NCBI GenBank assembly: GCA_001940825.1
Contig: MSGT01000011.1
Location: 1 to 43,950 of the forward strand
DNA: 43,950 nt
DNA from: Sphaerochaeta sp. Phil3
GTDB taxonomy: Bacteria; Spirochaetota; Spirochaetia; Sphaerochaetales; Sphaerochaetaceae
Direction: 5' to 3'
The first letter of the stretch is position 1; every line of letters starts with the position of its first letter. The notes under the pieces were generated by a model. The model saw only the letters and a program-made list of their open reading frames with translations. It was not told where the DNA came from and made no database searches. Shown here in pieces: positions 3,493 through 22,932 of the stretch. Made by a program: the position numbers and the translations under genes.

Positions 3493-4026
3493 TCAGAACT
3501 CAATTCCCTTTCTGGCATAGACTCCGTTGTCGAAGGGGTGCTTCTCCTTCTTGAGGTATGTGATGTAGTCTGCGGCATCTCTTAAGGCATCTATTGGGAT
3601 GCCTTTGTATTCGTGACCGGTCAGGATGAGCTCAGTTCCTTCGTTCTTGGTTTTCATGAGCTCTGGAAGGTTTGGGAATATGCCAAGATTGTAGGCATCA
3701 ACAGCCTCATCCAATACGACCATGTCATAGCTGCCATCAGTGGTCTTTTGCACGATTTCATCAATTATGGGCGAATACATGTCCCTGTATGCATTCGCTT
3801 TCTCCGCATCGCCGGAGAAAACGAAGGTGTTCGAGATTGGATTGTCAAGAAAGTCAATTCCCGGAATGCTTTTCAGGACGGACACTTCACCGCTGTCTCC
3901 ATTCTTAAGAAACTGGAAGAACAGAACCTTGAATCCGCTTCCCACTGCACGTATTGAACTTCCTACAGCAAGGGACGTCTTCCCTTTCCCGTCTCCAATG
4001 AATAGTTGAACAAGACCTTTTTTCAT
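3493..4026 (-). CDS. cobO: ATP:corrinoid adenosyltransferase, CobO/BtuR family
   Basis: This 177-aa protein transfers the adenosyl group of ATP to cob(I)alamin, making adenosylcobalamin. Visible landmarks are the N-terminal P-loop GDGKGKTS (residues 11-18), the Walker B-like YDMVVLDEAVDAY, the LTGH motif and the C-terminal ARKGIEF close, all in family order and near the usual length. It is last in the long minus-strand block and overlaps the preceding 85-aa gene by four bases. Its likely customer in this window is the B12-dependent glutamate mutase encoded at 17.1-20.5 kb; that link is inference from proximity. Confidence 0.92.
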   Translation of the reverse strand: MKKGLVQLFIGDGKGKTSLAVGSSIRAVGSGFKVLFFQFLKNGDSGEVSVLKSIPGIDFLDNPISNTFVFSGDAEKANAYRDMYSPIIDEIVQKTTDGSYDMVVLDEAVDAYNLGIFPNLPELMKTKNEGTELILTGHEYKGIPIDALRDAADYITYLKKEKHPFDNGVYARKGIEF

Positions 4027-4280
4027 AGACTTTCCAAAAACTCCTTAATTCGAACGATTGCAGTATTTGGCAGAACAGTCCTCTCCCCTTCAAAGTCCTC
4101 TTGGCATGTCTCCACGGCTTTGTGAAGGATGTCAGTGGAAAAGCCAGACAATGAAGCCATCTTTGAAAAGGCATCTTTTCCGTAGAGGACGAAGAAAGCA
4201 TTGTAAAGACAAAGCAGCCTTTGGGATTCAGTCTGTGCTTGTAGATATCTTCTATAGAACTGCTCTGCCTTTGGATTCAT
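4023..4280 (-). CDS. Unknown 85-aa protein coupled to cobO
   Basis: ATG 4280 sits behind AGGTAGGTC, and the ribosome site overlaps the stop codon of the upstream hydrolase gene. The protein (MNPKAEQFYRRYLQAQTESQ...) appears all-helical, without signal peptide or membrane segment. The motif LCLYNAFFVLYGKDAFSKM gives it an amphipathic look. It overlaps cobO by four bases (ATGA), suggesting coupled translation. No family recognised. A role in corrinoid handling is possible only from position. Confidence 0.6.
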   Translation of the reverse strand: MNPKAEQFYRRYLQAQTESQRLLCLYNAFFVLYGKDAFSKMASLSGFSTDILHKAVETCQEDFEGERTVLPNTAIVRIKEFLESL

Positions 4281-4283
4281 GAC

Positions 4284-5270
4284 CTACCTCATTTCATAGT
4301 ATTCAAGTATGAACTGGATTGTGTCAAGCTGGTCGTAGACACGCCTGTAGATATCGAAGCCTCTGAACGTCTCAACGGTAATCACTGGGATTCCCAGCAC
4401 ATTTGAGACTGTGCTGTTAAGACTTCCTGCCGGACCCGGCCCCGTTGCAGAGAAAGCATTGTGGCATATATCTCCATCCTCAGTTGCTGCAAGAAGATCG
4501 AACATGAGCATGTCTATGTCTTCAAGGGTTGTGAAGATGTAGGTGCTGCCTAGAAACTCCCTGCTCTTGGATACGACTATAGCTTCATGAAGGTCAAGCA
4601 CAAGGTCAGGGTTCTTGTCCTGTATGTCAGAGAATATGGCATAGTCAAGGACCTGTGTAAGCGTACCGTTTGGATCTCCAGGGAAGAATCTGTTGGGGTC
4701 GTCCGTTCCGGAAACCCTACGGCTTACCTTGTTGGCACCAATGATGTTCGCTTGGGAGAGCACATACAGATCTCCACAGGAAATCGTGCAGTCCTTCATG
4801 AGGACACCTGCATACCATGCGGCCCTTTCATCTCCATGGATTCCACCTGATATGTAGATGGTAGGACCTTCGTTCTCGCTATGGATATGCCAAACAGTCG
4901 TTTCTGCCGCAGAACCTTGGGCTATGGTGTAGCTGGAGACCTCTACGGAGTACTCTTCTTCAAAGAAGTCTCCAAAGTCAGAGAACTTCATGTCAAAGAT
5001 ATCAAGCTTGCTGTCCGGTTCGATTGCAACGTTCCATTCTTCGTTCCATGCAACCTTCTCCCCTGCAACCACAACGTATGTGGAAGGGTCGTTTGGGTCG
5101 TATAGAAGGCTCTGTTCCTCTTCTACAAAGGAATCATCCACGCTCTGATCGTCCAAGGATTCCTCCATGGAAGCGACTTCAACGGCAGGCTGTGCCTCCA
5201 CTCGAGGAAGCACAGCGCATGAACAAAGCAAAAGCGAAACAAGAAATAAAACTATGGTCTTGTACTTCAT
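4284..5270 (-). CDS. Lipoprotein AstE/aspartoacylase-like zinc amidohydrolase
   Basis: MKYKTIVLFLVSLLLCSC is a lipoprotein signal (lipobox L-C-S-C) followed by an acidic linker of about 60 residues, so the enzyme should sit outside the cytoplasmic membrane. The catalytic domain (about residues 110-328) has the H-x-x-E zinc motif in GGIHGDERAAWYAG, the third ligand in LDLHEA, and a V-E-T-F motif that fits the catalytic glutamate. These are hallmarks of the succinylglutamate desuccinylase/aspartoacylase (M14-like) family, which cleaves N-acyl amino acids or related amides. It overlaps the upstream paralogue by four bases. The substrate is unknown; an acyl- or gamma-linked glutamate is suggested by the neighbourhood. 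Confidence 0.75.
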   Translation of the reverse strand: MKYKTIVLFLVSLLLCSCAVLPRVEAQPAVEVASMEESLDDQSVDDSFVEEEQSLLYDPNDPSTYVVVAGEKVAWNEEWNVAIEPDSKLDIFDMKFSDFGDFFEEEYSVEVSSYTIAQGSAAETTVWHIHSENEGPTIYISGGIHGDERAAWYAGVLMKDCTISCGDLYVLSQANIIGANKVSRRVSGTDDPNRFFPGDPNGTLTQVLDYAIFSDIQDKNPDLVLDLHEAIVVSKSREFLGSTYIFTTLEDIDMLMFDLLAATEDGDICHNAFSATGPGPAGSLNSTVSNVLGIPVITVETFRGFDIYRRVYDQLDTIQFILEYYEMR

Positions 5271-6394
5271 TCTGGACTATGGAGATAGGCTCCAATTCCG
5301 TTTTCGACCATCTCATCGAATGATGGCATGTCACCCAAGGAGATGTATAGGTCGTCCTCTGGAAGGTATTCATCGCAGAAGGCCACAAGACAGCTTATGT
5401 GTCTTGCACAGCGTTCCGTTATTCCAATTCCATCCTCTCCAAACGGTACCGTGACGGCTCCGTACTGTGCCGCACGTGCGTAGAACTTGTCAACGCCGTC
5501 TACGACAAGTGAGCTATGGATGGCTCCGTGGAGCCTTCCTTGCGATGCATTCGCAGTCTCCATGAGAAGAGCAAGGGTATCGGTGTAGTCCCCCAATTCC
5601 CTATGGGTGAGGCCGTGCAGGTTGGTTGGAGATTTCTCGATCGAAATGGAGAAATAGTCCTCGACATCCCACAGCGCCATGTTTGCAAGCTCAATAGCGT
5701 TCTCATGTGCAACGATTGCATTGACTGTCGTGTATTCAGGGGATGCCTCGTGGAGGTCAACCGTTATGTCTATGTTCTCTTCGTTTATGAGGGTCGTGAT
5801 TCCATAGGCTATCATCTCAGTCAGGTTGCCGTTGGCTTTGCCGGGGTAGGCTCTGTTGAGGTTTCTGGTTTCGCTGCCGCTGAGGGTCTGTCCGCTGGAT
5901 GCGTGTACATAGACCTCGCTGTCAGGCCATTGGTCCGTTGGGTTGGTGGCTCTGCTTCCAAAACGGAACCATCGTTCGCCACCATCGGTCTCGATGAAGT
6001 ACTTCATTGGTGCGGCTTCCTGGGGGTCTGTGCATGTGAAGGCGCTGTTGTTGGCCCTTGGGATGACATAGAGTATGCCCTCCTCCGGCTGGCAGTATTC
6101 GACGAGCATGACTGCAGAGACGACGCCGCTTGGTTCGTTTGGATGCGTTCCTCCAAGGACGAGCATCGAGGCCCCTTCAACACCGCTGTCAAGGATGTAG
6201 ACCTCAGTGTCGCCGTTCGTTCCCTTAAGTCCAGGGAACCAGTCGGAGAGCATCTTCATGTCTGTAACGCCTTCGCCTGCATAGATTGGTTCAGGGTTCC
6301 TCATTGAGGAGAACGTGATGCCAAGATATACGACAAGGGCTATTACGACCAATGTGAGGATTACTGCGCTTATTATGTGTTTTGGTATCTTCAT
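5267..6394 (-). CDS. Membrane-anchored AstE/aspartoacylase-like zinc hydrolase (cassette 1)
   Basis: An N-terminal hydrophobic segment (IISAVILTLVVIALVVYLGI) should anchor this 375-aa protein with its catalytic domain outside. Zinc ligands are visible in GGTHPNEPSG (H, E) and ITVDLHEASPE (H), and a LLMETANAS motif carries the probable catalytic Glu. Residues about 150-190 (ATNPTDQWPDSEVYVHASSG) are closely shared with the paralogue at 8523-9674. It follows its 49-aa membrane-protein neighbour by 7 bp and is start/stop-overlapped with the lipoprotein hydrolase downstream. A role in releasing an amino acid from a conjugate for the adjacent permease is inference. Confidence 0.75.
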   Translation of the reverse strand: MKIPKHIISAVILTLVVIALVVYLGITFSSMRNPEPIYAGEGVTDMKMLSDWFPGLKGTNGDTEVYILDSGVEGASMLVLGGTHPNEPSGVVSAVMLVEYCQPEEGILYVIPRANNSAFTCTDPQEAAPMKYFIETDGGERWFRFGSRATNPTDQWPDSEVYVHASSGQTLSGSETRNLNRAYPGKANGNLTEMIAYGITTLINEENIDITVDLHEASPEYTTVNAIVAHENAIELANMALWDVEDYFSISIEKSPTNLHGLTHRELGDYTDTLALLMETANASQGRLHGAIHSSLVVDGVDKFYARAAQYGAVTVPFGEDGIGITERCARHISCLVAFCDEYLPEDDLYISLGDMPSFDEMVENGIGAYLHSPE

Positions 6395-6401
6395 ACGGAC
6401 C

Positions 6402-6551
6402 TCACTTTAGAAGAAGCAGACGCAGAAGCAATGTGACCATTACAAGTGCAGCATCGATCTGGAAGAACAGACTGTCCTTCTTGCGGTACATATTGTAGGC
6501 AATAAGGGAAAGAATGAAGGCCACGATGGCTAGATAGATGTATTTGAGCAT
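6402..6551 (-). CDS. 49-aa two-helix membrane protein (cassette 1)
   Basis: ATG 6551 has a strong AAGGAGGTCCCC site. The product is almost entirely two hydrophobic helices (YIYLAIVAFILSLIAYNMY and LFFQIDAALVMVTLLLRLLLL) joined by a basic RKKDS loop. By the positive-inside rule the loop faces the cytoplasm. It sits exactly between permease and hydrolase, 13 bp after the first and 7 bp before the second. A 48-aa protein of the same design holds the same place in cassette 2. It may be a small accessory subunit of the permease, far shorter than the four-helix DctQ of TRAP systems. Confidence 0.7.
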   Translation of the reverse strand: MLKYIYLAIVAFILSLIAYNMYRKKDSLFFQIDAALVMVTLLLRLLLLK

Positions 6552-6564
6552 ATCGGGGACCTCC

Positions 6565-7842
6565 TTATACAGTCAGGAACGACAAAGCGTTCGTGTTGAG
6601 TATACATACCACAGCAACTGCTATGCAGAACAAAAACGGTATGATGCAGTTCTTGAGTACAGGCTTGTACTTGAGCTCAACGATCTGTGCAGCATAGTTT
6701 CCAGCAAGCGCCGTAGGAGGCATGAGGTCTCCCAAACAGCATGTGAAAGCCAACACCGCAGCTACGACTATGTCGTTGCAGCTTGTGTTCTGGATCATGA
6801 CCAACAGGAAAGGTACGCCAATTACCGATGCCGCACCGTAGGAGCTGACAGCACCAAATGCAGGCATGATGGTGAACGTTGCTATATAGACGAATACCAT
6901 TCCAAGTCCAAGGCAGCTTACGACAATCCAACCTCTTGCACCAACAAGGGTCAGGACCTGTATGAACATTCCAACTCCCATGAGCTTTGCAAGGACAGGG
7001 ATGGTCGTCTCCATTGCATCTGCGCTTTCCTTGAGGAAGTTGAACTTCCTACCTGTGAATAGACCAACGAAGGACGAAATTAGGAATATGAGGCATGTCC
7101 CAAGCTGAGGGAACGAAGGGAGAGCCTTCGAGACCACAAGCAGCACTATGAGTACAATGATTGGAAGATACAGCTTGAAGCCGTACTCCTTCCCTATCTC
7201 CGTATTCAGCTGACTCTTGAGCTTTTCTATGTCAAGGTTCTTGCAGTACTTGAGTCCAAGGAAAAGGACTGTGAATACAGCACATGGAATCGTGAGAAGG
7301 AACAATGGTCCATCGAACCCAATGTAAGGCATATCGACACCACCGCCAATGAGCATTGCCGGAATGTTGATTGGAGGGGCCGCCATTCCCATGATTGCGC
7401 CAATGGCTATGATTGCACCGGCCTTTTCCCTTGGGATTCCAATCATAAGGAGAACCGGGGCGACAAGTGCACCGGCTGACAGAACTGCAGCAGTCGATGA
7501 ACCAGTGATCATTCCAGGGAACATGATGACGAACATGAGAAGTACGAGCATCAGAGCCGGTATCTTGTAGAATCTTGTCACGATTGCGGCATTCAGGGCC
7601 TCAAGGGCACCTGATTTCTGCACAACAGTCATGAACAGCATTGCAGTGGATATGATGAGCATCGTATCCACGTATGTGAATGTTCCCTCGAAAAGATGTC
7701 TGAGGGGAATACCCTGCCCGCCGACAAGAGCTCCGGCTATTGCACCAAACATCATCGAAAGGCTTACAGGGAGCTTGATTACCATGTTGGAGACCAGAAA
7801 GACCCCCAGCATGGCAAGAAGACATATCAATTCTAGATCCAT
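6565..7842 (-). CDS. DctM/IT-superfamily permease (cassette 1)
   Basis: A 425-aa polytopic protein with roughly eleven to twelve hydrophobic segments. Two halves each carry a glycine/proline-rich re-entrant motif: GMITGSSTAAVLSAG followed by MAAPPINIPAMLIGGG, and PAFGAVSSYGAASVIG followed by LGDLMPPTALAGNYA. This pattern fits ion-transporter superfamily carriers such as TRAP DctM for organic anions. No DctP binding protein or normal DctQ is encoded nearby. It starts at ATG 7842 behind GAGAGGATAAG. The likely cargo is an acidic amino acid or dicarboxylate-like product of the adjacent hydrolase; this is inference. Confidence 0.7.
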   Translation of the reverse strand: MDLELICLLAMLGVFLVSNMVIKLPVSLSMMFGAIAGALVGGQGIPLRHLFEGTFTYVDTMLIISTAMLFMTVVQKSGALEALNAAIVTRFYKIPALMLVLLMFVIMFPGMITGSSTAAVLSAGALVAPVLLMIGIPREKAGAIIAIGAIMGMAAPPINIPAMLIGGGVDMPYIGFDGPLFLLTIPCAVFTVLFLGLKYCKNLDIEKLKSQLNTEIGKEYGFKLYLPIIVLIVLLVVSKALPSFPQLGTCLIFLISSFVGLFTGRKFNFLKESADAMETTIPVLAKLMGVGMFIQVLTLVGARGWIVVSCLGLGMVFVYIATFTIMPAFGAVSSYGAASVIGVPFLLVMIQNTSCNDIVVAAVLAFTCCLGDLMPPTALAGNYAAQIVELKYKPVLKNCIIPFLFCIAVAVVCILNTNALSFLTV

Positions 7843-7851
7843 CTTATCCTC

Positions 7852-8508
7852 TCAATTGTAGAGGCTCTTGAACACATCGATGCAATCCTTGGTTCCATAG
7901 ATGAGTGAGACTGGAAGGTTGTGCTCAGAGGCGTACTTTGTGAACTTGTAGTCGAAGTTGGCGTCTTCCTTGAGAACGAGGTAGCTGCTCTCTTCAAGGA
8001 CCATGTCGGTGAGGACATCGGAGATCTGGCCTCTTCTTGCAGAACCACCAATATGTACGCATATTACGGTTATGTTCTCTTTCTTGACGACATCCATTAT
8101 GGCCTTGGCCCTTGCAAGCTCGTCATCGATTGAGATTCCCGCCGCTCCGAGACCCTTTGTAGATGCACCGACCGCTATTACTAGGGTCTTGACCCCAGAG
8201 ATCTTGTCTGCTGTAGCCGTAGGTGAATACGTGTAGTTGAGCTTGCACCTCTTCATGACGGTCTCAAGCATGGCACCTTCTGTGCTCTGTCCAAAGGACG
8301 TGATGAAGATGGGCTGTGAGTACAATGACTTGTCAACAGTACCCTTTGTTACGATTCTGTTCTTCGATGTCGTCTCCTGGACGAACTCAACTGTCTTGTT
8401 TGGATCGAACTCGGAATCGTTCGTTCCCTTTGACGATGTGTAGTCGTCTGCAAAGAGACCTGTACACACAAGTGCAAGTACGATAAGTGCAAGAGCAATC
8501 TTTTTCAT
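7852..8508 (-). CDS. Exported DUF6305-like protein
   Basis: The signal peptide MKKIALALIVLALVCTGLFA, with no lipobox cysteine, directs this 218-aa protein to the periplasm. The core has an alternating strand/helix pattern with glycine-rich loops: FITSFGQSTEGAMLE, then KTLVIAVGASTKGLGAAG, then VCVHIGGSARRGQISD. I recall this layout as DUF6305, a family of unknown function; that label is from memory. It lies between the two permease/hydrolase cassettes, 9 bp upstream of permease 1. A small periplasmic ligand-binding role for the transporters is plausible but unproven. Confidence 0.6.
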   Translation of the reverse strand: MKKIALALIVLALVCTGLFADDYTSSKGTNDSEFDPNKTVEFVQETTSKNRIVTKGTVDKSLYSQPIFITSFGQSTEGAMLETVMKRCKLNYTYSPTATADKISGVKTLVIAVGASTKGLGAAGISIDDELARAKAIMDVVKKENITVICVHIGGSARRGQISDVLTDMVLEESSYLVLKEDANFDYKFTKYASEHNLPVSLIYGTKDCIDVFKSLYN

Positions 8509-8522
8509 TATACTAACTCCTT

Positions 8523-9674
8523 TTAATTTATAGATTTAAGTATTCCGCCGAGGCCCATTTCCACCATGTCCTCGTATGTTCCAAGATTTGTGTCGAACGA
8601 TATGCATCTTTCAGGGACGTACTCAGAGAACCCTTCTGCAAGATATGCAATGGTAAGGATGTGACGGGCCACTCTATTCACAAGTGGATAACCATCCTCT
8701 GGAACATCGAAATAGACATAGCCGTCCAGGTGAGCCTGATAGTAGTTTGGCTCGTTTCCGTTGATGATGAGGTCGTCGTCCATCTTTCCATGAAGCGGTC
8801 CCATGGATGGGTTGTACGTCTCCATCAATGTCATCATGGACTCAGTGTTGTCTCCAAGGCTTCTATGTGAAAGGCCATAGCTGTTGACGCCGGAATACTC
8901 CGCCCTCATTGTGAGGTCGTCGAACTCCATTGACAGGCACATGTAGCTTGCAATGCTCATTGCAAGGCTGTTGTCCGAATGCTTGTTGACCATAGTGCAG
9001 TCAAGATAGAGGAATTCAGGGGAGCCTTCGTGCATATCCATCGTTATGTCTACGTTCTCTGTCTTTATGAGATTGTAGATTCCATAGCAGGCACGCTCGG
9101 TCAGCACTCCCTTTTCGTTTCCAAAGTACATCCTGTTTATGTTCCTTATCTCGGCGCTTTCGGTTCCAACGAGCTTTCTTCCAGAAGATCCTTCGTAGTA
9201 TGTCCTGTCTGGCCACTGGTCAACAGGATTTGAAAGCCTGTTGCCTACTCTGAATGTACGAGTGGAACCATCGTCCAACTCTATGGAGAAGAAGTCCTGC
9301 ATTCCATCAAGTGGAGAGGTATGCGAGAAGCCGCTTCTATTGGTCCAAGGGATTATCATCACACGTCCCTCTGTGACCTCTATGTTCTCAATGAGAGCAA
9401 TGGCTGCAACAGGTCCTGCGCTTTCGTTTGGATGAGTGCCTCCAAGGACAAGGAACGTTCCACCTGGAACTCCGCTGTCAAAGACATATATTGGGGTATC
9501 CAAGTCCGTACCGGCAAGGCCTTCGCTGTAGTCTGAAAGCCATCTAATCTCCGTGAGGTTTGGATTGTCCGCAATTGGTTCGTCGTGGTGCATTGCAAGG
9601 AAATCAATGGATGCAAAGACAGCGAAGACAGCAGCGACAAGCAGTATGATGACATGCCAAATATATTTCTTCAT
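8523..9674 (-). CDS. Membrane-anchored AstE/aspartoacylase-like zinc hydrolase (cassette 2)
   Basis: ATG 9674 lies 8 bp after AGGAGG; a GTG one codon upstream is less likely. The N-terminal helix (IWHVIILLVAAVFAVFASI) anchors a 383-aa protein. It parallels the cassette 1 enzyme throughout, with zinc ligands in GGTHPNESAG and DITMDMHEGSPE, a TLMETYNPS motif, and the shared LSNPVDQWPDRTYYEGSSG stretch. The two differ at many positions, so they are diverged paralogues and not a recent duplication. It is preceded by a 48-aa membrane protein and a permease. The exact substrate cannot be read from the sequence. Confidence 0.75.
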   Translation of the reverse strand: MKKYIWHVIILLVAAVFAVFASIDFLAMHHDEPIADNPNLTEIRWLSDYSEGLAGTDLDTPIYVFDSGVPGGTFLVLGGTHPNESAGPVAAIALIENIEVTEGRVMIIPWTNRSGFSHTSPLDGMQDFFSIELDDGSTRTFRVGNRLSNPVDQWPDRTYYEGSSGRKLVGTESAEIRNINRMYFGNEKGVLTERACYGIYNLIKTENVDITMDMHEGSPEFLYLDCTMVNKHSDNSLAMSIASYMCLSMEFDDLTMRAEYSGVNSYGLSHRSLGDNTESMMTLMETYNPSMGPLHGKMDDDLIINGNEPNYYQAHLDGYVYFDVPEDGYPLVNRVARHILTIAYLAEGFSEYVPERCISFDTNLGTYEDMVEMGLGGILKSIN

Positions 9675-9684
9675 CACATGCCTC

Positions 9685-9831
9685 CTACTTTATGTGCAGT
9701 GCCCTGAGCACGAACGTGACGATGATTATTGCGAAGCATACAAGCTCCTGAGGTTTCCTCTTTCTGAAGAATCCGTATACAAGAAGAATGGATGCAACGG
9801 TTATGATTGAATAGTAAACAGCCTGAAGCAT
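9685..9831 (-). CDS. 48-aa two-helix membrane protein (cassette 2)
   Basis: ATG 9831 follows AAGGAGGACAGA. The protein has two hydrophobic helices (VYYSIITVASILLVYGFF and LVCFAIIIVTFVLRAL) separated by the basic loop RKRKPQ and ends HIK. The design, size and position match the 49-aa protein of cassette 1, though the residues differ. It lies 10 bp after the permease, and its stop codon lies directly beside the ribosome site of the hydrolase gene. Conservation of place and topology argues that it is real and works with the permease. Confidence 0.7.
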   Translation of the reverse strand: MLQAVYYSIITVASILLVYGFFRKRKPQELVCFAIIIVTFVLRALHIK

Positions 9832-9841
9832 TCTGTCCTCC

Positions 9842-11116
9842 TTATAGAATCAGCATGGAGAGGTTGTCTCCAAAATAGACCCAAACCAAACCCATGCAAA
9901 GAGTTGCAACAAGTATTGGAATTATTTGCTTGATTATGTCGCCATACTTGCAATCAGTGCCAAGAGCCTTGGAAACCCTTGGAATGAGCCCGCCTCTGAA
10001 ATCAAGAACGCTTACACATGCAAGTCCGGCTGCGCATCCTGTAACGACTACTGTATTTGCAAGCCAACCTATTGGGAACACTGCATATGTTATTAGGAAG
10101 GCAGGGATAGGTTCTCCAAGGAATGTACCAATGACAAGTGAAGCCAGAATGAGAACAAGCATTACGTTTGGAACCTCGTAGGGAAGGATCCAAAGGCTGT
10201 ACAGTCCACGGACTCCGGTCATTGAAGAAACCTCTACGAACGATCCAAGAGCGAATATGAATGCAACCGGCCACACGGCGTTCTCCATTCCATCGCAAAT
10301 GGTGTCAAGGCATTTTCTTGCAGAACCAAATCCTTTGTTTGCAACAATAAGCAGGATCGATGCAATGGTGAATATGAGCGTGCCGCCTCCAATGTAGACG
10401 AAGGATGAAAGAAGTCCTTCGACAAGCAAAAGGATGCATACGGCTGCAAAAATGATGATTGAGAAGGTGCTCTTCTCTTCCCTATTCGTTTCCGTTACGG
10501 CTGACAGGGTCTTCATGTTCATGAGTGTGAAGATGATGTATGAAGGAACCGCAGTAAGCAGCAATGGAAGGAAGAATCCAATGTAAGGTGTTGGCAGGAC
10601 GCTTCCAGCGCCATTTGCAGCAATGATTGCCGGGATGCAGTTTGGAGGCATTATCATGCCTATGAACGATCCACCAACAACGACGGTCGTTGCCTTCTTG
10701 CCATCCATTCCGTTGGCTTTGAGATTGTCTCCAACGATCTTTCCAGTAGTAAGTACCGATGCCATTGTGAAACCGGTCAATGCGGCTGGAAGCGCGATGA
10801 ACAGCAGTACGGCAAAGGATTTGACCACTCTGTTCTTTATCTTTGTAATTGGGGCGAAAAGCGAATCGAAACAACCGCCTACGTAAAGAAGCCACACGAA
10901 TACTGACGCGCATACAACATTGAGTGATGAATCAAGGAATCCAAAAGGACCCTCGACTATCTCTCTGAAGCGTATGCCCATGCCAGCGACAAGTGAACCA
11001 GCGACAGCTGCAGCAAGAAGGAATACGACGCTCCATTTCCTGTCGTTTTTCTTCCACCCAGAACCAATCACGCTTATCGCAATCATCACTGCGGCTATAA
11101 GAATTTCCTCTCTCAT
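9842..11116 (-). CDS. DctM/IT-superfamily permease (cassette 2)
   Basis: ATG 11116 is chosen because AGGAG lies just upstream; longer frames run into a palindrome. The 424-aa protein (MREEILIAAVMIAISVIG...) has about eleven membrane segments. Its motifs align in order with cassette 1: LTGFTMASVLTTGKIVGDN, GMIMPPNCIPAIIAANGAG, and in the second half TFLGEPIPAFLITYAVFPIG and LDFRGGLIPRVS. The sequence is clearly diverged from permease 1, so the two may carry different substrates. It lies about 100 bp downstream of the gamma-glutamyltransferase gene, with a 13-bp inverted repeat between them. Confidence 0.68.
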   Translation of the reverse strand: MREEILIAAVMIAISVIGSGWKKNDRKWSVVFLLAAAVAGSLVAGMGIRFREIVEGPFGFLDSSLNVVCASVFVWLLYVGGCFDSLFAPITKIKNRVVKSFAVLLFIALPAALTGFTMASVLTTGKIVGDNLKANGMDGKKATTVVVGGSFIGMIMPPNCIPAIIAANGAGSVLPTPYIGFFLPLLLTAVPSYIIFTLMNMKTLSAVTETNREEKSTFSIIIFAAVCILLLVEGLLSSFVYIGGGTLIFTIASILLIVANKGFGSARKCLDTICDGMENAVWPVAFIFALGSFVEVSSMTGVRGLYSLWILPYEVPNVMLVLILASLVIGTFLGEPIPAFLITYAVFPIGWLANTVVVTGCAAGLACVSVLDFRGGLIPRVSKALGTDCKYGDIIKQIIPILVATLCMGLVWVYFGDNLSMLIL

Positions 11117-11167
11117 GGGAACTCCTGTAGTAATACGGGGATGCCAGGATGAATCCCGACACCCATG

Positions 11168-11200
11168 AGGGAATTGCAAAGCCTAGTTTTGCAATTCCCT
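11168..11200. repeat. Intercistronic 13-bp perfect inverted repeat
   Basis: AGGGAATTGCAAA (11168-11180) and TTTGCAATTCCCT (11188-11200) are exact complements around a 7-nt loop. It lies between ggt and permease 2, both on the minus strand, with no T-run on either side. It may act as an mRNA processing or stabilising hairpin, or be a mobile-element trace. Confidence 0.7.
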
Positions 11201-11216
11201 TCCATCAACTCAATTA

Positions 11217-13097
11217 TCAATAAGCACTTGCGCCATAGTAGCGTCTATGGTCGCCAACAGCTCTGAAAGTGCCGTCTTCAAGAACCTCGACGGCTGCAAG
11301 TGAACCTACGTGGGAGCTGTAGCCTGCAGAGATGTCAGAGCCTATGACATCAAAGCCCATGTCGAGAAGCCCCTTGTATGTCTCAAGGCTGTAGTTCTCC
11401 ACATAGATGCTCTTGCTTGTCATGTAGTCTCTGTATGTTCTTGGAGCATTGACTATCTGTGCTGCATCAAAGCCAAAGTCAACATAGTTTATTATGGCTT
11501 CGAAAGTTGCAGAGCAGGTGCACCAGTTTCCAGGGGAACCAAGGGCAAGAACAGGCTTGCCGTTTGCATCGGCCACGATGGTTGGGCAGATCGTCGATGA
11601 TGTCTTCGCACCTGGAAGGAGTGCATCGACCTTGCGGAAGCCCTGGTTGTCGAACAGCATGAGATGTGCGGAGAATACGAATCCCGTTCCTGGAACAGCA
11701 AGTGCAGAACCAAAGTTCTGACCGTTCGTATTGGTCGTAGACACAACGTTTCCGTACTTGTCCATGCAGACAAGATGAGTCGTTCCACCTGGATCGAAGA
11801 CATCTCCGTTCTTGACCTTCTCGCCTGTCTCCGTCAATGAAACCTGAAGTTTGCCTGCGGAAGCCGTCCTCATCTTCTGGTTTGGTGTGATGAGCTTTGC
11901 TCTCTCCGCTGCATATTCCTTGCTTGTGATGGTATCGATTGGCATGTCATAGTAGGCAGGGTCGCTTACGAACGAAACGCCGTCCTTGCATCCAAGAAGG
12001 AAGGATTCGGCCTTGAGCTGCACTGTTGTTGGGTTGTCGAAACCAAGAGATGCAAGGTCGAAGTTCTCAGCTATGTTGAGGGCCTCCACGAGAGCCACTC
12101 CTCCCTTCGTTGGAGCGGATACCGTTATGACCTTGTGGTCTCTGTATGTAGTCACAAGAGGCTCTCTGATGACTGTCTTGTAGTTCGCAAAGTCCTCGTG
12201 AGTGAGGATTCCACCAAGGCTCTGGATGTAATCGACCATCATATCCGTGAAGTCGCTGTCGTAGAAGCCTTCGATTCCTTCGTTTGCAATGAGCTCCAGA
12301 GTGTCCGCCAGGTCATCGTTCGTGATGATGTCACCTTCCTCATAGAAGAAGCCTTCGTCAGTGTAGAGGTTGAGGGTGTATTCGTATGCAGAGATGTTCG
12401 CATACCTGCCGTCAAGGTTGGAGTTCCATCTTGCAGGGAGCTCAAAGCCTTCGCGGGCAAGTTCGATGACAGGAGCAAGGACCTGTGCAGGTGTCATTGT
12501 TCCGTACATCTCAAGTGCTGTGAGCGTTCCGTGGACGACGCCAGGGATTGCAATGGACTGAACCGATGGCGGATTTGAACTGCCGTCAGTGTCGGTCTCC
12601 CCTATCCTGGCATTGGAAGGCACCTGTGTAAGGTACTCGATGTTGATATACTTGTCCTGGTCTGCAAGGTAGACGAGCATTTGTCCAGCTCCTCCAATAC
12701 CTGAGGCTGCAGGCTCAAGAAGGCCAACTGCATAGATCATTGCAACGGCTGCATCGACTGCATTTCCACCCTGTTCAAGGATTTGGGTGCCAATCTGGGC
12801 GGCAATTGGGTTCGAACAGGCCGTTGCTCCGTTCGTACCAACGGCGGCACTGTTCCAGACATCGCTCGTCCAACCGGAATCCACTGGCTCCGGAGTGCTC
12901 ATGAAGTCCACAGGTTCATACCATGAGTAGTCTTCCTCTACGACAGGTTCCGGTTCCGAAACCGCTGCTACTATGGTTGCAGGATCCTGGGTGGAGACCT
13001 GCGAAAGTTCGTCTGTCACATGTCCTGATGCCGCGCAGGAAACCGCAACGGCGAAGACAACTAGGGCAACAGCGAAAAGTGAAAGGTTTCTTTTCAT
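11217..13097 (-). CDS. ggt: Gamma-glutamyltransferase, lipoprotein form
   Basis: This 626-aa enzyme hydrolyses or transfers the gamma-glutamyl group of glutathione and similar compounds, releasing glutamate. A lipoprotein signal (AVALVVFAVAVSC) replaces the usual periplasmic signal peptide, so it should be membrane-tethered outside the cell. The autoprocessing site is visible in DPGGTTHLVCMDKYGN. The first Thr (about residue 439) is the expected nucleophile, leaving a small chain of about 188 residues, normal for the family. LALGSPGNW replaces the usual G-S-P-G-G loop. ATG 13097 or GTG 13103 may start it. An upstream terminator hairpin would lower its expression relative to the preceding lipoprotein gene. 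It fits a supply role for glutamate fermentation. Confidence 0.9.
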   Translation of the reverse strand: MKRNLSLFAVALVVFAVAVSCAASGHVTDELSQVSTQDPATIVAAVSEPEPVVEEDYSWYEPVDFMSTPEPVDSGWTSDVWNSAAVGTNGATACSNPIAAQIGTQILEQGGNAVDAAVAMIYAVGLLEPAASGIGGAGQMLVYLADQDKYINIEYLTQVPSNARIGETDTDGSSNPPSVQSIAIPGVVHGTLTALEMYGTMTPAQVLAPVIELAREGFELPARWNSNLDGRYANISAYEYTLNLYTDEGFFYEEGDIITNDDLADTLELIANEGIEGFYDSDFTDMMVDYIQSLGGILTHEDFANYKTVIREPLVTTYRDHKVITVSAPTKGGVALVEALNIAENFDLASLGFDNPTTVQLKAESFLLGCKDGVSFVSDPAYYDMPIDTITSKEYAAERAKLITPNQKMRTASAGKLQVSLTETGEKVKNGDVFDPGGTTHLVCMDKYGNVVSTTNTNGQNFGSALAVPGTGFVFSAHLMLFDNQGFRKVDALLPGAKTSSTICPTIVADANGKPVLALGSPGNWCTCSATFEAIINYVDFGFDAAQIVNAPRTYRDYMTSKSIYVENYSLETYKGLLDMGFDVIGSDISAGYSSHVGSLAAVEVLEDGTFRAVGDHRRYYGASAY

Positions 13098-13104
13098 CTT
13101 CACA

Positions 13105-13140
13105 TCCTAAAAAACGCCCTCATTGCTGAGGGCTTTTTAC
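13105..13140 (-). terminator. Terminator/attenuator between lipoprotein gene and ggt
   Basis: On the minus strand GCCCTCA-GCAA-TGAGGGC is followed by GTTTTTT; the plus strand also has a CTTTTT tail. Since both flanking genes point the same way, with only 70 bp between them, it probably attenuates read-through into ggt. Confidence 0.75.
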
Positions 13141-13167: not shown

Positions 13168-14388
13168 TTAGAAGAATTTGACTGCAGCAATTCCGCAACC
13201 TGCAACAAGTTCCGTTGCAAGAGCGTCTGCGACAGGGACATCAACGACGGAGCCATCGAGGTACTCGATCTGTGCAACCTTTGCATCAGCCACGGCTGCA
13301 TTGAGGGACTCGACCGTTGAAGCTGCATCTGTAAGGAATACGATGGCGGCGCTGTCGAACGTGATCGATGCAACATTGACTGCATCGTCGGTGTTGGCCT
13401 TGAGCTGGTATGGACGAAGAGCCATGAAACCATTGGACTTGTGATGGATGAGTCTGTCCTCAAGGACCCTTGCAACCTCGTAGTCGGTTCCATTGTACTG
13501 TGCGCTGACAGGTGCCTTTGCTCCGTACTGGGCAAGAAGCGTTCCAATCTGGATTGCGTTGTAGTATGAACCCTTCACGTTGCCTACTGCGTTTGGCTGC
13601 TTGCCGTATACGGACTTGGCGCAGAGAGCGAATACTGCCCTCATGATCTTGCCATCTACAGGTGTGGACTCTGGAGTGACTCCTTCTGGAACGACGGAGT
13701 ATGCGTTCTGGATGAGTCCTGCTGGTGTCTGGATGTTGACCGTGTTGAGGTCGAACAGGACTGTGGACTCAGAGACATCGGCCTTGGACAGGACGTAAGT
13801 CTTGCCTTCGACGTCGGTTACGATGTAGTTCTCTGCATCGAGCATCTGCTTTTCGTTGGAGATTGGCTCAAGGGCGATCTTCGAAAGTGGGTAGTCGTAT
13901 GGGACGTAGACCAAAAGCTCGCTGCCTATGGATGAGAAGCACTGGTAGTAGCACTGGCTTGAAGCTGCCTGGCCCTCGCCTACGCAGATATCGTATTCAT
14001 ATTTTCCATTGGTGTCCTTTCTGAAAGCTATGTACTTCTCGGTGAAGAGCTTGGACTTTGCGTTTTCCTTTTCAGAGTAGTTGGCCATGTCAAGGTATGT
14101 GTCGTCGAAAGTACCGGTTGCACACAGGGCTGTTGGCTCAGGCTGGAACCAGAAGTCCTCTTCGACGATCGTCTTGATGCTGTAGCCACCCCACCACTCA
14201 ACAGCGTTGAATGCCTGACGGATGATGTCTGACGATGCAAGCTGTGGAACGGTTGCGATATCGCCTGCCGTCTCAGGTGCATCGAGTGCTATGACTGTAA
14301 ACTTTGCCTCTTTCTGTCCAAGTGATGCACATGAAACTGAAAGAAGAAGAACAACTATGACCAGTAGAGCATTACTGATTCTCTTCAT
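13168..14388 (-). CDS. Unknown lipoprotein, 406 aa
   Basis: The signal ISNALLVIVVLLLSVSC gives lipobox S-V-S-C. The mature protein has no membrane segment and no family I recognise. An aromatic patch (VEWWGGYSIKTIVEEDFWF), a cysteine-containing SSQCYYQCFSS and a C-terminal LVAGCGIAAVKFF stand out. It is first gene of the acquisition block, behind a strong AGGAGG site and a promoter region holding a TTGACA box and a CACAAAATTTGTG palindrome. A terminator follows, so it is likely the most highly transcribed gene of the block, as expected for a surface binding protein. That role is inference. Confidence 0.7.
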   Translation of the reverse strand: MKRISNALLVIVVLLLSVSCASLGQKEAKFTVIALDAPETAGDIATVPQLASSDIIRQAFNAVEWWGGYSIKTIVEEDFWFQPEPTALCATGTFDDTYLDMANYSEKENAKSKLFTEKYIAFRKDTNGKYEYDICVGEGQAASSQCYYQCFSSIGSELLVYVPYDYPLSKIALEPISNEKQMLDAENYIVTDVEGKTYVLSKADVSESTVLFDLNTVNIQTPAGLIQNAYSVVPEGVTPESTPVDGKIMRAVFALCAKSVYGKQPNAVGNVKGSYYNAIQIGTLLAQYGAKAPVSAQYNGTDYEVARVLEDRLIHHKSNGFMALRPYQLKANTDDAVNVASITFDSAAIVFLTDAASTVESLNAAVADAKVAQIEYLDGSVVDVPVADALATELVAGCGIAAVKFF

Positions 14389-14566: not shown

Positions 14567-15541
14567 TTACTGCTCTGGATCCTTTAACTCATCCTCAACG
14601 TGGAACATCTCAAGGGCCATGTGAATGAAGTCCTTGGCGAAGCCGCAAAGGTATCGGTCTTTGTTGTACCCAATGGCTATGGTGTCCGATATGCCTACTT
14701 TTCTGAAATGGAAGCAGCGTACCTTCCTTTTGAGTTCCCTGTCGTGGTTGGCGGAGAACACGTATGGGCTGTCCAGATAGATATCCGGGCTTATGGTCAT
14801 GCCCATGCCCTCCCCTGCAAGCGCCAAGGCCGTTTGGATGTTGCTCGTTTCAAGCCTCACCGTTGGACGAACACCGGCAAAGCGGAACACGTTGTCCGCC
14901 ATGGTTCGTATGCGGTCGCCTTTGCTTAGAAGTATGAACGGGACGTTGCGGAACAGGCGTATGTCGTTTGTCTTCTCATATTGGGCTACCACTTCGTCAG
15001 CATGTCCGGGGAAGCATTTTTCAAGCAGAGAATCCGATACGACGATGGAAAGGTTCTCCTTCATGAGTTCATGGTACACGGCGCCTTCAACGAAGAAAGG
15101 TCCAAAGCCTATGAGTATGTCTATTCTACCTTTGAGCAGGTAGTCCTCAAGAACACGGGAGGTGTCTTCGATGACTTCTATTTCGACGTTTGGGTACATG
15201 GAGCTGAACTTTGGAAGAATAAGCGGCAGAATGGCCTGGCCTCGTGTATGACCTATTCCTATCCTAAGCTCGCCTCTGGAACTTCCATTGATGTCGTCTA
15301 TTGCAAGAAGGGTCTGGCGCTTGAGGTCAAGGATCTGGTTGCAGCTTTCAAGGAACCATTTGCCGCTATAGGTGAGGTTCATGTTCTGCTTTCTGTCGAA
15401 CAGTGCGCAACCAAGTTCCTGTTCCAACCTGGCTATGCTGTTGCTCAATGCCTGCTGAGAGAGGTTGAGCACTTCAGCAGCTTTCGATACGCTGCCCTCG
15501 GATACAACGGTGATGAAGTATTCCATGTTTTTGAAGTTCAT
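14567..15541 (-). CDS. LysR-family transcriptional regulator
   Basis: Starting at ATG 15541 (GGGGAGCAAAG upstream), the 324-aa protein opens with the classic winged helix: MEYFITVVSEGSVSKAAEVL, then LSQQALSNSIARLEQELG and LFDRKQN. The effector domain follows (RGELRIGIGHTRGQAILPLI..., then FSSMYPNVEIEVIEDTS). The frame is open for 58 codons upstream, but those residues do not belong to the family. It is divergent from the fumarase/glutamate mutase operon, the usual arrangement for a LysR regulator and its target. Its effector may be glutamate, mesaconate or a related acid; this is inference. Confidence 0.88.
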   Translation of the reverse strand: MNFKNMEYFITVVSEGSVSKAAEVLNLSQQALSNSIARLEQELGCALFDRKQNMNLTYSGKWFLESCNQILDLKRQTLLAIDDINGSSRGELRIGIGHTRGQAILPLILPKFSSMYPNVEIEVIEDTSRVLEDYLLKGRIDILIGFGPFFVEGAVYHELMKENLSIVVSDSLLEKCFPGHADEVVAQYEKTNDIRLFRNVPFILLSKGDRIRTMADNVFRFAGVRPTVRLETSNIQTALALAGEGMGMTISPDIYLDSPYVFSANHDRELKRKVRCFHFRKVGISDTIAIGYNKDRYLCGFAKDFIHMALEMFHVEDELKDPEQ

Positions 15542-15743: not shown

Positions 15744-16586
15744 ATGAGAGAAATAAGATGCGAAGACATTACGAAAACGGTCAGAGACCTATGCATCAAA
15801 GCCAACAGTTTCCTTCCACAAGATGTCAGAAGCAGGATATGCCAAGCCTGTGAAACGGAGAGCTGGCCACTTGCGAACAGCATTCTTAGGACGATTAGGG
15901 AAAACTTCGAGATAGCGGAGCACGACGAAGTCCCAATATGCCAGGACACCGGCGCCGCATGTGTATTCGTCACCATGGGCCAGGATGTATATGCCGATGG
16001 TTCGATTGCCGCCGCAATCGACGAGGGCGTCCGACAGGGATACGCAGGCGGCTATCTTAGGAAATCCATTGTATCCGACCCACTTGACGGAAGGGTCAAC
16101 ACAGGAGACAACACCCCTGCCATGATCTACTGGGATGTGGTTCCAGGAGATGCATTCAGAATCACCGTAGCTCCAAAAGGCTTTGGGTCTGAGAACATGA
16201 GCAGAATCAAGATGCTTCGTCCTGCAGATGGTGTGGAAGGTGTGAAGGAGTTCGTCGTCAAGACCGTCGAAGAGGCAGGGCCCAATCCATGCCCACCAAT
16301 AATCGTTGGCGTTGGCATAGGCGGAACGTTCGACAAGGCGGCCCTTCTTGCAAAGAAGGCTCTTATGAGAAGCACTGACGTGCGTAATCCAAAGAAGTAC
16401 TACGCAGACCTAGAGAAGGAGCTCCTTGACAGGATAAACGACCTTGGAATTGGACCGCAGGGCATTGGAGGAAGAACGACATGCCTTGCAGTGAACATTG
16501 AGGAGATGCCAACCCACATTGCAGGACTTCCCGTGGCTGTGAACATCAACTGCCATGTGACGAGACACATTACGGAGGAACTGTGA
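15744..16586 (+). CDS. Class I fumarase/mesaconate hydratase, alpha subunit
   Basis: This 280-aa protein is the N-terminal half of an iron-sulfur hydro-lyase of the class I fumarase/L-tartrate dehydratase type. Three cysteines expected to bind the 4Fe-4S cluster are visible in VPICQDTGAA, GPNPCPP and VNINCHVTRH, along with GVGIGGTFDKAA. Class I fumarases also hydrate mesaconate. In this operon, with glutamate mutase, methylaspartase and a citrate-lyase-type enzyme, the likely reaction is mesaconate to (S)-citramalate. It is first gene of the operon, divergent from lysR, and overlaps the beta gene by one base. Confidence 0.88.
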   Translation: MREIRCEDITKTVRDLCIKANSFLPQDVRSRICQACETESWPLANSILRTIRENFEIAEHDEVPICQDTGAACVFVTMGQDVYADGSIAAAIDEGVRQGYAGGYLRKSIVSDPLDGRVNTGDNTPAMIYWDVVPGDAFRITVAPKGFGSENMSRIKMLRPADGVEGVKEFVVKTVEEAGPNPCPPIIVGVGIGGTFDKAALLAKKALMRSTDVRNPKKYYADLEKELLDRINDLGIGPQGIGGRTTCLAVNIEEMPTHIAGLPVAVNINCHVTRHITEEL

Positions 16587-17149
16587 TGGAGAAGAGAATC
16601 AGCTCTCCAATGACGGAGAAACAGGCAAGAAGCCTCAGAAGCGGAGACTCCGTCCTGATTTCAGGAACCATATACACGGCAAGGGACGCCGCCCACAAAA
16701 GACTGTGTGCACTGCTTGCGGAGGGAAAGGACCTGCCGTTCGATGTAGAAGGCAGCATCATATACTTCGTTGGCCCAACCCCTGCAAAGCCAGGCCAGGC
16801 CTTGGGGTCTGCCGGTCCAACTACAAGCTACAGGATGGACCCCTACTCCCCTGCCCTCATAAAAGCAGGGCTCAAGGGTATGATAGGCAAAGGGAAAAGG
16901 GATTCCAACGTCATAGCGGCGATGAAGGAGAACGGTGCTGTGTACTTTGGGGCCATTGGAGGGGCTGGAGCGCTCCTATCCAAATGCATAAAGAAGTCCG
17001 AGCTCATTGCATACGAAGACCTTGGCTCGGAAGCCATAAGAAAACTTGAAGTCGAGGATTTCCCGGCTTTCGTGATAATCGATTCACAGGGCAACAACCT
17101 CTACGAAACCGGAAGACAGGAATACCTGGACGCTACAAAGGAAAAATGA
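16586..17149 (+). CDS. Class I fumarase/mesaconate hydratase, beta subunit
   Basis: The start is ATG 16586, sharing its A with the TGA of the alpha gene; a GTG one codon earlier is also in frame. The 187-aa product is the small subunit (C-terminal half) of class I fumarase. It has the swivelling domain with [21 protein letters not shown], the [22 protein letters not shown] substrate loop, GMIGKGKR and [13 protein letters not shown]. Together with alpha it makes the complete enzyme used between methylaspartase and citramalate lyase. Its stop overlaps the next start (ATGA), indicating coupled translation. Confidence 0.88.
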
Positions 17150-17616
17150 ACATGGAAGAGAAGAACAACGAAAAGAACGTTGAAAAGACCACTGAAATGA
17201 AGCCAAAGAAGAAAATCGTCATTGGAGTCATTGGTGCAGACGTCCACGCTGTTGGAAACGCAATTCTGAACAGAGCGTTCCTTGATGCAGGTTTTGATGT
17301 GACGAACCTTGGTGTCCTCGTACCTCAGGAGGAGTTCATACAGGCCGCAGTGGAGGTTGGAGCCGATGCAATCCTTGTCTCCTCCCTCTATGGTCAGGGA
17401 GAGATAGACTGCACGGGAATGCGTGAGAAATGCGATGAGGCAGGTCTCAAGGGAATACTCCTCTATGCAGGTGGCAACCTGGTAGTTGGAAAGGTACCAG
17501 AGGAAGAGATCGTGGCACGCTACCGTGCACTTGGATTCGACAGGGCATTTGGTCCTGGTACGGACCCTTCCGTTGACATCGCATGCCTTAGAAAAGACCT
17601 CCACATGGACGACTGA
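17146..17616 (+). CDS. glmS: Glutamate mutase S (sigma) subunit, B12-binding
   Basis: The small component of adenosylcobalamin-dependent glutamate mutase (methylaspartate mutase). The B12-binding fold is explicit: DVHAVG is the D-x-H-x-x-G motif whose His ligates cobalt, followed by [10 protein letters not shown] (S-x-L) and [10 protein letters not shown] (GG). A lysine/glutamate-rich N-terminal tail of about 23 residues precedes the domain and is longer than usual; a start at the second Met (17152) is possible. It works with the E subunit and MutL encoded just downstream. It converts L-glutamate to (2S,3S)-3-methylaspartate, the committing step of this fermentation. Confidence 0.93.
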
Positions 17617-17623
17617 TGGCCAG

Positions 17624-18994
17624 ATGAGCAACATTCTTCTCATTGATTTTGGAAGCACATATACAAAACTCACTGCTGTAGACACGGAGACTGAAAGCAT
17701 ACTTGGAACCAGCCAAAGCTATACCACAGTCGAAAGCGATATCATCAACGGCTACGAAAACGCACTTTCAGAGCTCAGAAAGCAGACAGGAGGCATTGTG
17801 TTCGACAAGCGAATAGCATGTTCGAGCGCTGCAGGCGGGCTCAAGATGGTGGCCGTTGGGCTTGTACCGGAGCTGACATCCAAGGCCGCACGACTTGCAT
17901 CCCTTGGAGCCGGGGCAAAGGTCATCAAGACATATTCATACGAGTTGACCAAGTCCGATCTTGAAGAGATAGACTCCTCAAGGCCCGATATTTGCCTTCT
18001 ATGCGGTGGAACGGATGGAGGAAACAAGGAAGTTATAATCCATAATGCAGGCATGCTTGCAAAGAGTACTGGACACTTCCCTATCGTATACGCAGGAAAC
18101 AGAAATGCAGCGGATGAATGCGCAGAGATTCTTGCATCCAAACAATGCATAGTATGCTCCAACGTCATGCCCCGCTTGGGAATCACCGACTCCGCCCCAG
18201 TCCAAAAGGTCATACGTGAGATATTCCTCACCCAAATCGTAAAGGCCAAAGGGCTATCCAAGGCCCAGGATCTGGTAGGAGGCATACTCATGCCTACACC
18301 ATCTGCCGTCCTAGCTGCAATGAAGCTTCTTTCAAAGGGAACCGAACGTGAGGATGGGATTGGAGATCTGGTTGCAGTGGACCTTGGAGGAGCAACGACT
18401 GATGTATACTCCATGTGCAACGGCCATCCAACGAATCCAATGACCACTTTGCGAGGCCTCAAGGAAGAATATGCAAAAAGGACGGTCGAAGGCGACATTG
18501 GAATGCGCTACAGCATAAAAGGGATTCTGGAAGCCAGCTCTCCATATGAAATCTCAACCATTTCAGGACTTCCTGAGGACATCTGCCTTGAAAAGATAAA
18601 CCACCTTGCAGAGAACACGGATGAGCTTCCCTCTACAGAGGAAGACCAGAACCTGGACGTTGCACTGGCCTGCATTGCAGTCAGAACCGCAGTTGCCCGC
18701 CATGCAGGGAGAATTGAGGAGTACTACACCCCAATGGGCGTTTCGTATGTACAGACTGGAAAGGACCTTGGCTCAGTAGAGACTATTATAGAGACAGGTG
18801 GCGCATTGGTGCGCACAGGCTACGCCGAGAAGATTGGACAATACGCCCTCTACTCCCCCAATGATCCAATGTCCCTACGTCCAAAGAAAGCAAAAATACT
18901 GACTGACAGAAAATACATTCTTGCAGCCATGGGGCTTCTATCCACGGAATACCCAGATGTTGCACTTCACATAATGAAAAAGGAGCTTGTCTGA
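17624..18994 (+). CDS. glmL: MutL/GlmL, glutamate mutase reactivase
   Basis: The real start is ATG 17624 ([16 protein letters not shown]...); the frame is open further upstream but overlaps glmS. The 456-aa protein is an ASKHA-fold ATPase of the MutL family, thought to reactivate B12-damaged glutamate mutase. The phosphate loops are [15 protein letters not shown] at the N-terminus and [15 protein letters not shown] in the middle, with the adenosine-binding [11 protein letters not shown] near the C-terminus. It lies between glmS and glmE, the classical clostridial order, 7 bp after glmS. Confidence 0.92.
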
Positions 18995-18995
18995 T

Positions 18996-20477: not shown

Positions 20478-20545
20478 AGATATCCGAAAAGAAGATTGGG
20501 ACAGGAAAACCAATCTATATAATATAGAAATAGGAGACATATGAT

Positions 20546-21790: not shown

Positions 21791-21798
21791 GGCTAACC

Positions 21799-22068
21799 AT
21801 GGAAATCATTAGAAAGGCATGGGCGGGAACAGGCGAATCAAGCGATGCATACGTATTGGTGTCACCTGCAAATACATTGGAGATAGAGATTTCCTCTGTA
21901 GTATACAACCAGTATGCAAAAGCAATCGACAAGGCCGTAAGGGAGACCCTTGCAGACTTGGGGGTTGAAAAAGGAACCATAACCATCAATGACAAGGGGG
22001 CTCTTGACTGTGTCATTCAGGCAAGGGTCGAAACCGCAATCAAAAGGGCATCGGAGGCTGGAGTATGA
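21799..22068 (+). CDS. citD: Citrate/citramalate lyase acyl carrier protein (gamma subunit)
   Basis: The 89-aa carrier protein of citrate-lyase-type enzymes. The prosthetic-group serine is visible in AGTGESSDAYVLVSP near the N-terminus, where 2'-(5''-triphosphoribosyl)-3'-dephospho-CoA is attached and then acetylated. ATG 21799 is preferred to an in-frame TTG overlapping mal. It overlaps citE by four bases. No citC, citX or citG gene for making, attaching or acetylating the cofactor is seen in this window, so those must be elsewhere. Confidence 0.9.
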   Translation: MEIIRKAWAGTGESSDAYVLVSPANTLEIEISSVVYNQYAKAIDKAVRETLADLGVEKGTITINDKGALDCVIQARVETAIKRASEAGV

Positions 22069-22931: not shown

Positions 22932-22932
22932 G

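Follow-up and report, generated by a model that had tools for sequence, protein, structure and literature searches.

The window analysed here is a 43,950-nucleotide stretch (contig MSGT01000011.1, positions 1 to 43,950) from the gut spirochaete Sphaerochaeta sp. Phil3. Its minus strand carries a gene array in which a DctM-like carrier (Perm), a protein of 48 or 49 residues (Mini) and an anchored zinc hydrolase (Hyd) follow one another twice, with an exported DUF6305 protein between the two sets and a gamma-glutamyltransferase (GGT) ahead of them. These genes form a module that recurs in several bacterial phyla and that, as judged from gene content, is strongly associated with poly-gamma-glutamate (PGA) genes. 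We consider it probable, with considerable room for doubt, that exported enzymes of the module cut gamma-glutamyl chains and that the carrier imports the product, which would here be fermented as glutamate.

The proposed sequence of events is as follows. Outside the cytoplasm, GGT and Hyd would cut gamma-glutamyl chains from the ends, releasing glutamate or gamma-oligomers of short length. The cleavage product would be imported by Perm, assisted by Mini as a small partner, and the exported DUF6305 domain may help in capture of the product or in gating. In the window organism, the imported glutamate would be fermented by the neighbouring methylaspartate pathway; the gene of a B12 cofactor enzyme ends the module array. 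We infer the substrate, the direction of transport (uptake as opposed to synthesis or anchoring) and the functions of Mini and DUF6305 from the observations described below. PGA is known mainly as a Bacillus capsule or exopolymer. The module offers concrete candidates, both for depolymerases and for a carrier, in mostly anaerobic bacteria of several phyla, so that recycling or consumption of PGA by anaerobes becomes directly testable.

Association of the module with poly-gamma-glutamate genes

Three genome samples link the module to PgsB. Among 150 related genomes, Hyd was present in 18, and a strong PgsB match was found in exactly the same 18 and in 0 of the 132 others (Fisher p = 1e-23). Among 393 genomes of the phylum, PgsB was found in 14 of the 15 with DUF6305 and in 9 of the 378 without it (p = 6e-19); DUF6305 was counted over its cut-off, to the exclusion of a single marginal match (25 bits, in a frame of 669 aa). 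Strong PgsB was also present in 48 of 50 distant genomes carrying the module. The Fisher p-values are inflated by relatedness, but the pattern is nevertheless seen across phyla. This bears on the idea that the module scavenges gamma-glutamyl compounds in general (glutathione, gamma-glutamyl peptides, folate polyglutamates), independently of PGA. GGT is the classical glutathione-degrading enzyme, and two of the 50 distant genomes are without strong PgsB; yet the exact co-occurrence in the 150 relatives would not be expected from such a role, and we regard it as improbable.

The association was also evident from gene neighbourhoods. A search of bacterial genomes with an alignment of the hydrolases yielded at least 512 relatives, of which the 80 best loci were examined. 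By record name, they belong to Spirochaetales, Clostridia and other Bacillota, Fusobacteriaceae, Comamonadaceae, Deltaproteobacteria and Holophagaceae. Next to the module we repeatedly found PgsB, PgsC and PgsW, and also a gene pair for a sensor kinase and a response regulator; PgsB was present in 40 of the 80 loci (23 of 35 among loci of at least 17 kb). The order in Clostridium tetanomorphum is GGT-DUF6305-Perm-Mini-Hyd-(HydC)-PgsB-PgsC-PgsW-kinase-regulator, where HydC is a further hydrolase gene and PgsB, PgsC and PgsW are all over NCBIfam cut-offs. Similar orders were found in Treponema vincentii and Fusobacterium gastrosuis. In the window genome, a third, divergent module with a 57-aa Mini lies on contig C61, about 6 kb from PgsB-PgsC-PgsW. 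Between this module and PgsB there are Peptidase_C69 genes of the Ntn type, two at least and probably three (locus L049, 10701-16162), which are further candidates for gamma-glutamyl chain cleavage.

The co-occurrence with PgsB could equally fit a role in the synthesis, anchoring or secretion of PGA. According to such an explanation, a CapD-like GGT would release or anchor the polymer, Hyd would trim its length like Bacillus PgdS, and Perm, Mini and DUF6305 would supply glutamate or aid export, with the window copies as spares belonging to a capsule or exopolymer system. The loci that join the module to PgsB-PgsC-PgsW, about half of the total and often with a two-component pair, would be explained in this way. 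Moreover, CapD, which takes part in producing or anchoring PGA in Bacillus anthracis (PMC3815933), is related to GGT and was detectable starting from the window GGT. Fusobacterium nucleatum produces PGA according to work cited in PMC3815933, and its pgs operon is without a pgdS gene (PMC3815933), so that another depolymerase is expected; the candidates of the module address this open point of the review. However, in the window and elsewhere in the genus, the doubled module is located away from PgsB, the window module faces glutamate fermentation genes and has CobA within its array, and Bacillus subtilis, used as a control, has PgsB but is without DUF6305. A carrier of the elevator fold is also unsuited to the movement of a polymer. 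On balance, we find a role in PGA production rather unlikely.

Apart from this ambiguity of the co-occurrence, several points weigh against import and use of PGA cleavage products. PgsB and PgsC are absent from the window array, and PgsB does not adjoin the window cassettes. The PgsB of the window genome (G000:C61:145744-146835), with PgsC and PgsW adjoining, scores 186 bits against an NCBIfam cut-off of 222.7. Within the phylum sample, one genome with DUF6305 (G480) is without strong PgsB, as are the two distant genomes mentioned above, and the 80-locus sample was selected via similarity of Hyd. Finally, glutamate mutase is found only in the window genome within its family, so that the link to glutamate fermentation amounts to one local event and a single clostridial locus (L117, see below).

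The module shares with the PgsB/PgsC systems that include CapD or PgdS (Bacillus, F. nucleatum; PMC3815933) the combination of PgsB, PgsC and a GGT-related enzyme, and the presence of a PGA-cleaving enzyme at the locus. It differs in that DUF6305, a DctM-like carrier, a 48-aa protein and an AstE-like hydrolase are not described for these systems in the literature searched, in that PgsW (TIGR04332) substitutes for or joins other parts, and in that the window copies are apart from PgsB. In the open-access literature searched, the module was undescribed, nothing joined PGA genes to a TRAP-like carrier, PGA was not found linked to AstE-type hydrolases, and no mention of DUF6305 was found.

The gene array and its conservation

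In the order of transcription, the minus-strand array consists of LP406, GGT, PermA, MiniA, HydA, the DUF6305 protein, PermB, MiniB, HydB, HydC, ORF85 and CobA. The features, with their basis in brackets, are:

13168..14388, minus strand: LP406, putative lipoprotein without known family, head of the array (open reading frame (ORF) and N-terminal lipobox-like sequence)
11217..13103, minus strand: GGT, exported, probably a lipoprotein, gamma-glutamyltransferase with TTH catalytic motif (Pfam and NCBIfam profiles)
11168..11200, no strand: perfect inverted repeat (13 bp) in the GGT-PermA gap (sequence)
9842..11119, minus strand: PermA, DctM-like carrier of the A cassette, 425 aa (Pfam DctM, E = 1e-8)
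9685..9831, minus strand: MiniA, 48 aa, two hydrophobic stretches (ribosome-binding site; ratio of nonsynonymous to synonymous substitution rates, dN/dS; match to a profile whose training set had no A-type minis, E = 3.5e-7)
8523..9677, minus strand: HydA, N-terminally anchored AstE/aspartoacylase-like zinc hydrolase, 384 aa (Pfam AstE_AspA_cat)
7852..8508, minus strand: DUF6305 protein, exported, single alpha/beta domain, 218 aa (Pfam PF19823, E = 9e-47)
6565..7842, minus strand: PermB, DctM-like carrier of the B cassette, 425 aa (Pfam DctM, E = 8e-17; predicted fold)
6402..6551, minus strand: MiniB, 49 aa, two hydrophobic stretches, C-terminal LLRLLLLK (alignment, ribosome-binding site, dN/dS)
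5267..6394, minus strand: HydB, N-terminally anchored AstE/aspartoacylase-like zinc hydrolase, 375 aa (Pfam AstE_AspA_cat; alignment)
4284..5270, minus strand: HydC, third AstE-type hydrolase, lipoprotein-like, 4-bp overlap with HydB (Pfam, E = 2e-12)
4023..4280, minus strand: ORF85, small conserved protein after HydC (homologues at the same place in relatives)
3493..4026, minus strand: CobA/BtuR, ATP:corrinoid adenosyltransferase, 4-bp overlap with ORF85 (Pfam, E = 6e-42)

An earlier note on this DNA had described two tandem permease-miniprotein-hydrolase cassettes with gaps of 7-14 bp and a DUF6305 protein between them, and its coordinates and gene order were correct. GGT, HydC, CobA, the opposite-strand genes for glutamate fermentation (from 15744) and the near-obligate PgsB link had been overlooked. 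The cassettes are diverged, as the note had stated: HydA and HydB are 41% identical over 382 aa, PermA and PermB 28% over 323 aa, and no BLAST alignment of MiniA with MiniB could be obtained. The suggestion that selection has kept the arrangement was borne out as well. The Perm-Mini-Hyd order is retained in 76 of the 80 loci, in several phyla and with median gaps of 10-11 bp, two sets are present in 21 loci, and the dN/dS of the minis is mostly 0.05-0.3. Order conservation and dN/dS rule out chance tandem ORFs, and the finding that would have spoken against the note, an order confined to this genome, did not materialize in the neighbourhoods of other genomes, where the order is widespread. The three genes are not the whole unit, since GGT (63 of 80 loci) and DUF6305 (immediately before Perm in 65 of 80) belong to it too.

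In phylogenetic trees, the A-type permeases formed one clade (support 0.81), as did the A-type hydrolases (0.997), and the B clades agreed between the permease and hydrolase trees. We conclude from the agreement of the A and B clades that the doubled module was inherited or transferred as a unit. At L102 and L128, additional GGT or hydrolase genes stand beside one carrier, indicating duplication of the enzymes without duplication of the carrier.

The minis are 47-57 aa long across the loci. In 41 aligned sequences, the single invariant residue is an Arg near the C terminus, inside the consensus LRLLxIK-COOH. Both window minis have AGGAGG ribosome-binding sites. When A-type and C-type minis were left out of the training set, the resulting profile recovered 22 of 22 A-type and 12 of 12 C-type sequences (E ≤ 0.02; 11,070 ORFs), and all checked matches with E < 0.1 fell at mini positions. 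Judged from their sequences, the minis are thus one family under purifying selection, and locus conservation, dN/dS and the held-out profile recovery rule out a spurious ORF. The two hydrophobic stretches suggest a two-helix membrane topology. The small PGA protein PgsE/CapE is similar in size to the 48-aa Mini, and no family model matched Mini. A 48-aa membrane protein family, easily overlooked by gene finders, is thereby defined.

The spacing of the genes is tight from PermA onward, with gaps of 7-14 bp and, at the end of the array, a gap of 3 bp and 4-bp overlaps, and the PermA-to-CobA genes can therefore be read as one operon. The inverted repeat at 11168-11200 is a possible attenuation or processing site, and a terminator-like hairpin with a T tail lies between LP406 and GGT (13116-13133); with these two elements, the array may give rise to several transcripts. 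LP406 had no Pfam or NCBIfam match. Its homologues precede GGT in 13 loci.

Candidate enzymes and carrier

HydA, HydB and HydC all exceed the curated cut-off of PF24827 (AstE_AspA_cat). The alignment of the hydrolases has invariant H84, E87 and H215, and also R181, E216 and E279, and the HxxE...H zinc site is present. An N-terminal hydrophobic anchor is present in both HydA and HydB, which also retain the HPxE, DxHE and RNxNR motifs of AstE/aspartoacylase enzymes. The pairing of an anchored extracytoplasmic zinc hydrolase with a carrier, as read from the window earlier, is conserved across loci. Hyd shares its catalytic domain and metal/catalytic motifs with the AstE, aspartoacylase and DoeB zinc amidohydrolases, but differs from them in being anchored outside the membrane and in having an insertion with an invariant QWPD motif. 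Its scores are far below all equivalog cut-offs, ruling out membership in any NCBIfam equivalog. In two relatives, HydB and HydC are fused into a protein of 678 aa with two AstE-type domains (L041 9266-11302, L042 6251-8287), suggesting that the two act jointly.

The AstE substrate N-succinyl-glutamate is close in shape to gamma-glutamyl-glutamate. PGA is cleaved by zinc enzymes of the carboxypeptidase fold, such as the phage PGA hydrolase PghP (PMC4497714). Together, the substrate resemblance and the PghP-type precedent make cleavage of gamma-glutamyl chains by Hyd chemically reasonable. PghP (PF05908) is, like Hyd, a zinc peptidase related to carboxypeptidase A, and the bond proposed for Hyd, a gamma-glutamyl amide, is the same. 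However, PghP is a small endo-hydrolase of another sequence family, and a PghP-type identity of Hyd was ruled out, because HydA, HydB and HydC had no match to PF05908 at E ≤ 0.1. Among the substrate options of the earlier note, gamma-linked glutamate fits the neighbouring genes best, while N-acyl amino acids and aspartate gained no independent support.

We also considered that the hydrolases might act on peptidoglycan, at gamma-D-Glu bonds (compare MpaA and Csd4/M99), with the carrier recycling cell-wall glutamate. HydC-type domains do match Peptidase_M99 weakly (25.5 bits, cut-off 27), and one of them matches MpaA (E = 3e-7). But peptidoglycan is near universal, whereas the module tracks PgsB, and no further wall-recycling genes were recognised among the neighbourhoods recurring across loci. 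A role in cell-wall recycling therefore seems very improbable.

Gamma-glutamyl bonds are cleaved by GGTs. The window GGT matches Pfam G_glu_transpept (PF01019) with E = 2e-115 and 387 bits, and scores 354.6 bits against the NCBIfam equivalog TIGR00066, just under the cut-off of 357.85. Its residue 441, in the TTH region, aligns with the small-chain start of solved GGTs.

Both PermA and PermB exceed the curated cut-off of Pfam DctM, but are far below that of NCBIfam dctM, and a sequence search against solved structures gave one weak TRAP match only. The PermB model (predicted confidence, pLDDT, of 90) matches SLC13 Na+/sulfate and dicarboxylate carriers, ArsB and TRAP M with Z of 22-28 over 385-411 residues. 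The match to SiaM has Z = 26 over 405 residues and that to IseQM Z = 24.9; SLC13 and ArsB chains score alike. This predicted fold, which does not discriminate substrate, places PermB among the organic-anion carriers of the elevator superfamily.

As in TRAP transporters (DctPQM, SiaPQM), a carrier that is DctM-like by Pfam and predicted fold is encoded alongside an exported protein and a small membrane protein. Unlike in TRAP transporters, neither DctQ nor DctP was matched among the array products scanned with Pfam, in agreement with the earlier note. The only small membrane proteins there have 48-49 aa and contain two hydrophobic stretches. The soluble protein consists of one alpha/beta domain (about 150 residues in the DUF6305 model), whereas the TRAP binding protein is two-lobed. 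Without DctQ or DctP in the array and with scores below the NCBIfam dctM cut-off, membership in the TRAP family was ruled out.

The model of the window DUF6305 protein (pLDDT 89) has one domain, ruling out a classical two-lobed binding protein. Its matches in the PDB were middling (best Z 7.9) and of mixed folds, so that no structural relative is claimed, and a sequence search against solved structures yielded nothing convincing. The alignment has an invariant glycine-rich GxSxKGxGxAG loop and an HxGGxxRRG motif. From these conserved motifs and the export of the protein, our guess is that it captures a ligand; in any case, the module gives DUF6305 a context. Going further, and only tentatively, we suggest that Perm and the 48-aa Mini might constitute, with the exported DUF6305 domain, a minimal tripartite carrier for gamma-glutamyl chains, unlike TRAP or TTT, and that with the anchored AstE-like and GGT enzymes it might form a general, unnamed route for the use or recycling of PGA in anaerobes of several phyla.

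Glutamate fermentation genes and other neighbours

Upstream of the array, the window contains two further features of interest:

14567..15541, minus strand: LysR-type regulator between the divergent gene sets (NCBIfam LysR matches)
15744..24357, plus strand: methylaspartate pathway with mesaconase A/B, glutamate mutase S, GlmL, mutase E, methylaspartate ammonia-lyase, CitE and CitF (NCBIfam)

GlmS, GlmL, GlmE, Mal and the hydro-lyase pair are over NCBIfam cut-offs. CitE matches TIGR01588 below the cut-off, and CitF was assigned by position and sequence, both being of the citramalate/citrate lyase type. As annotated from sequence, the methylaspartate pathway is complete and divergent from the module array. 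Glutamate mutase requires adenosylcobalamin, which CobA produces. CobA closes the minus-strand array that the pathway adjoins, which ties the array to glutamate use in the window organism, that is, in one lineage. CobA was not found at the module in same-genus loci without glutamate mutase; in L036, from a genome without the mutase, a GDPD gene occupies the CobA position after ORF85. In L117, from an independent clostridial genome, the module lies about 2.5 kb from citDEF-type genes. A general link between module and glutamate mutase was ruled out, the mutase being present in 13 of the 50 distant genomes and only in the window genome within its family.

A CitC-like gene (citrate lyase ligase, named by eye) lies just upstream of LP406 in L031 (8334-9062) and L036 (3714-4436), two loci of the same genus as the window, both from genomes without glutamate mutase. 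In the flanking regions, near the window ends, the same ORF occurs twice (1770-2318 and 42943-43950; 92% identity over 111 aa) and, judged by eye, resembles Rpn/PD-(D/E)XK proteins.

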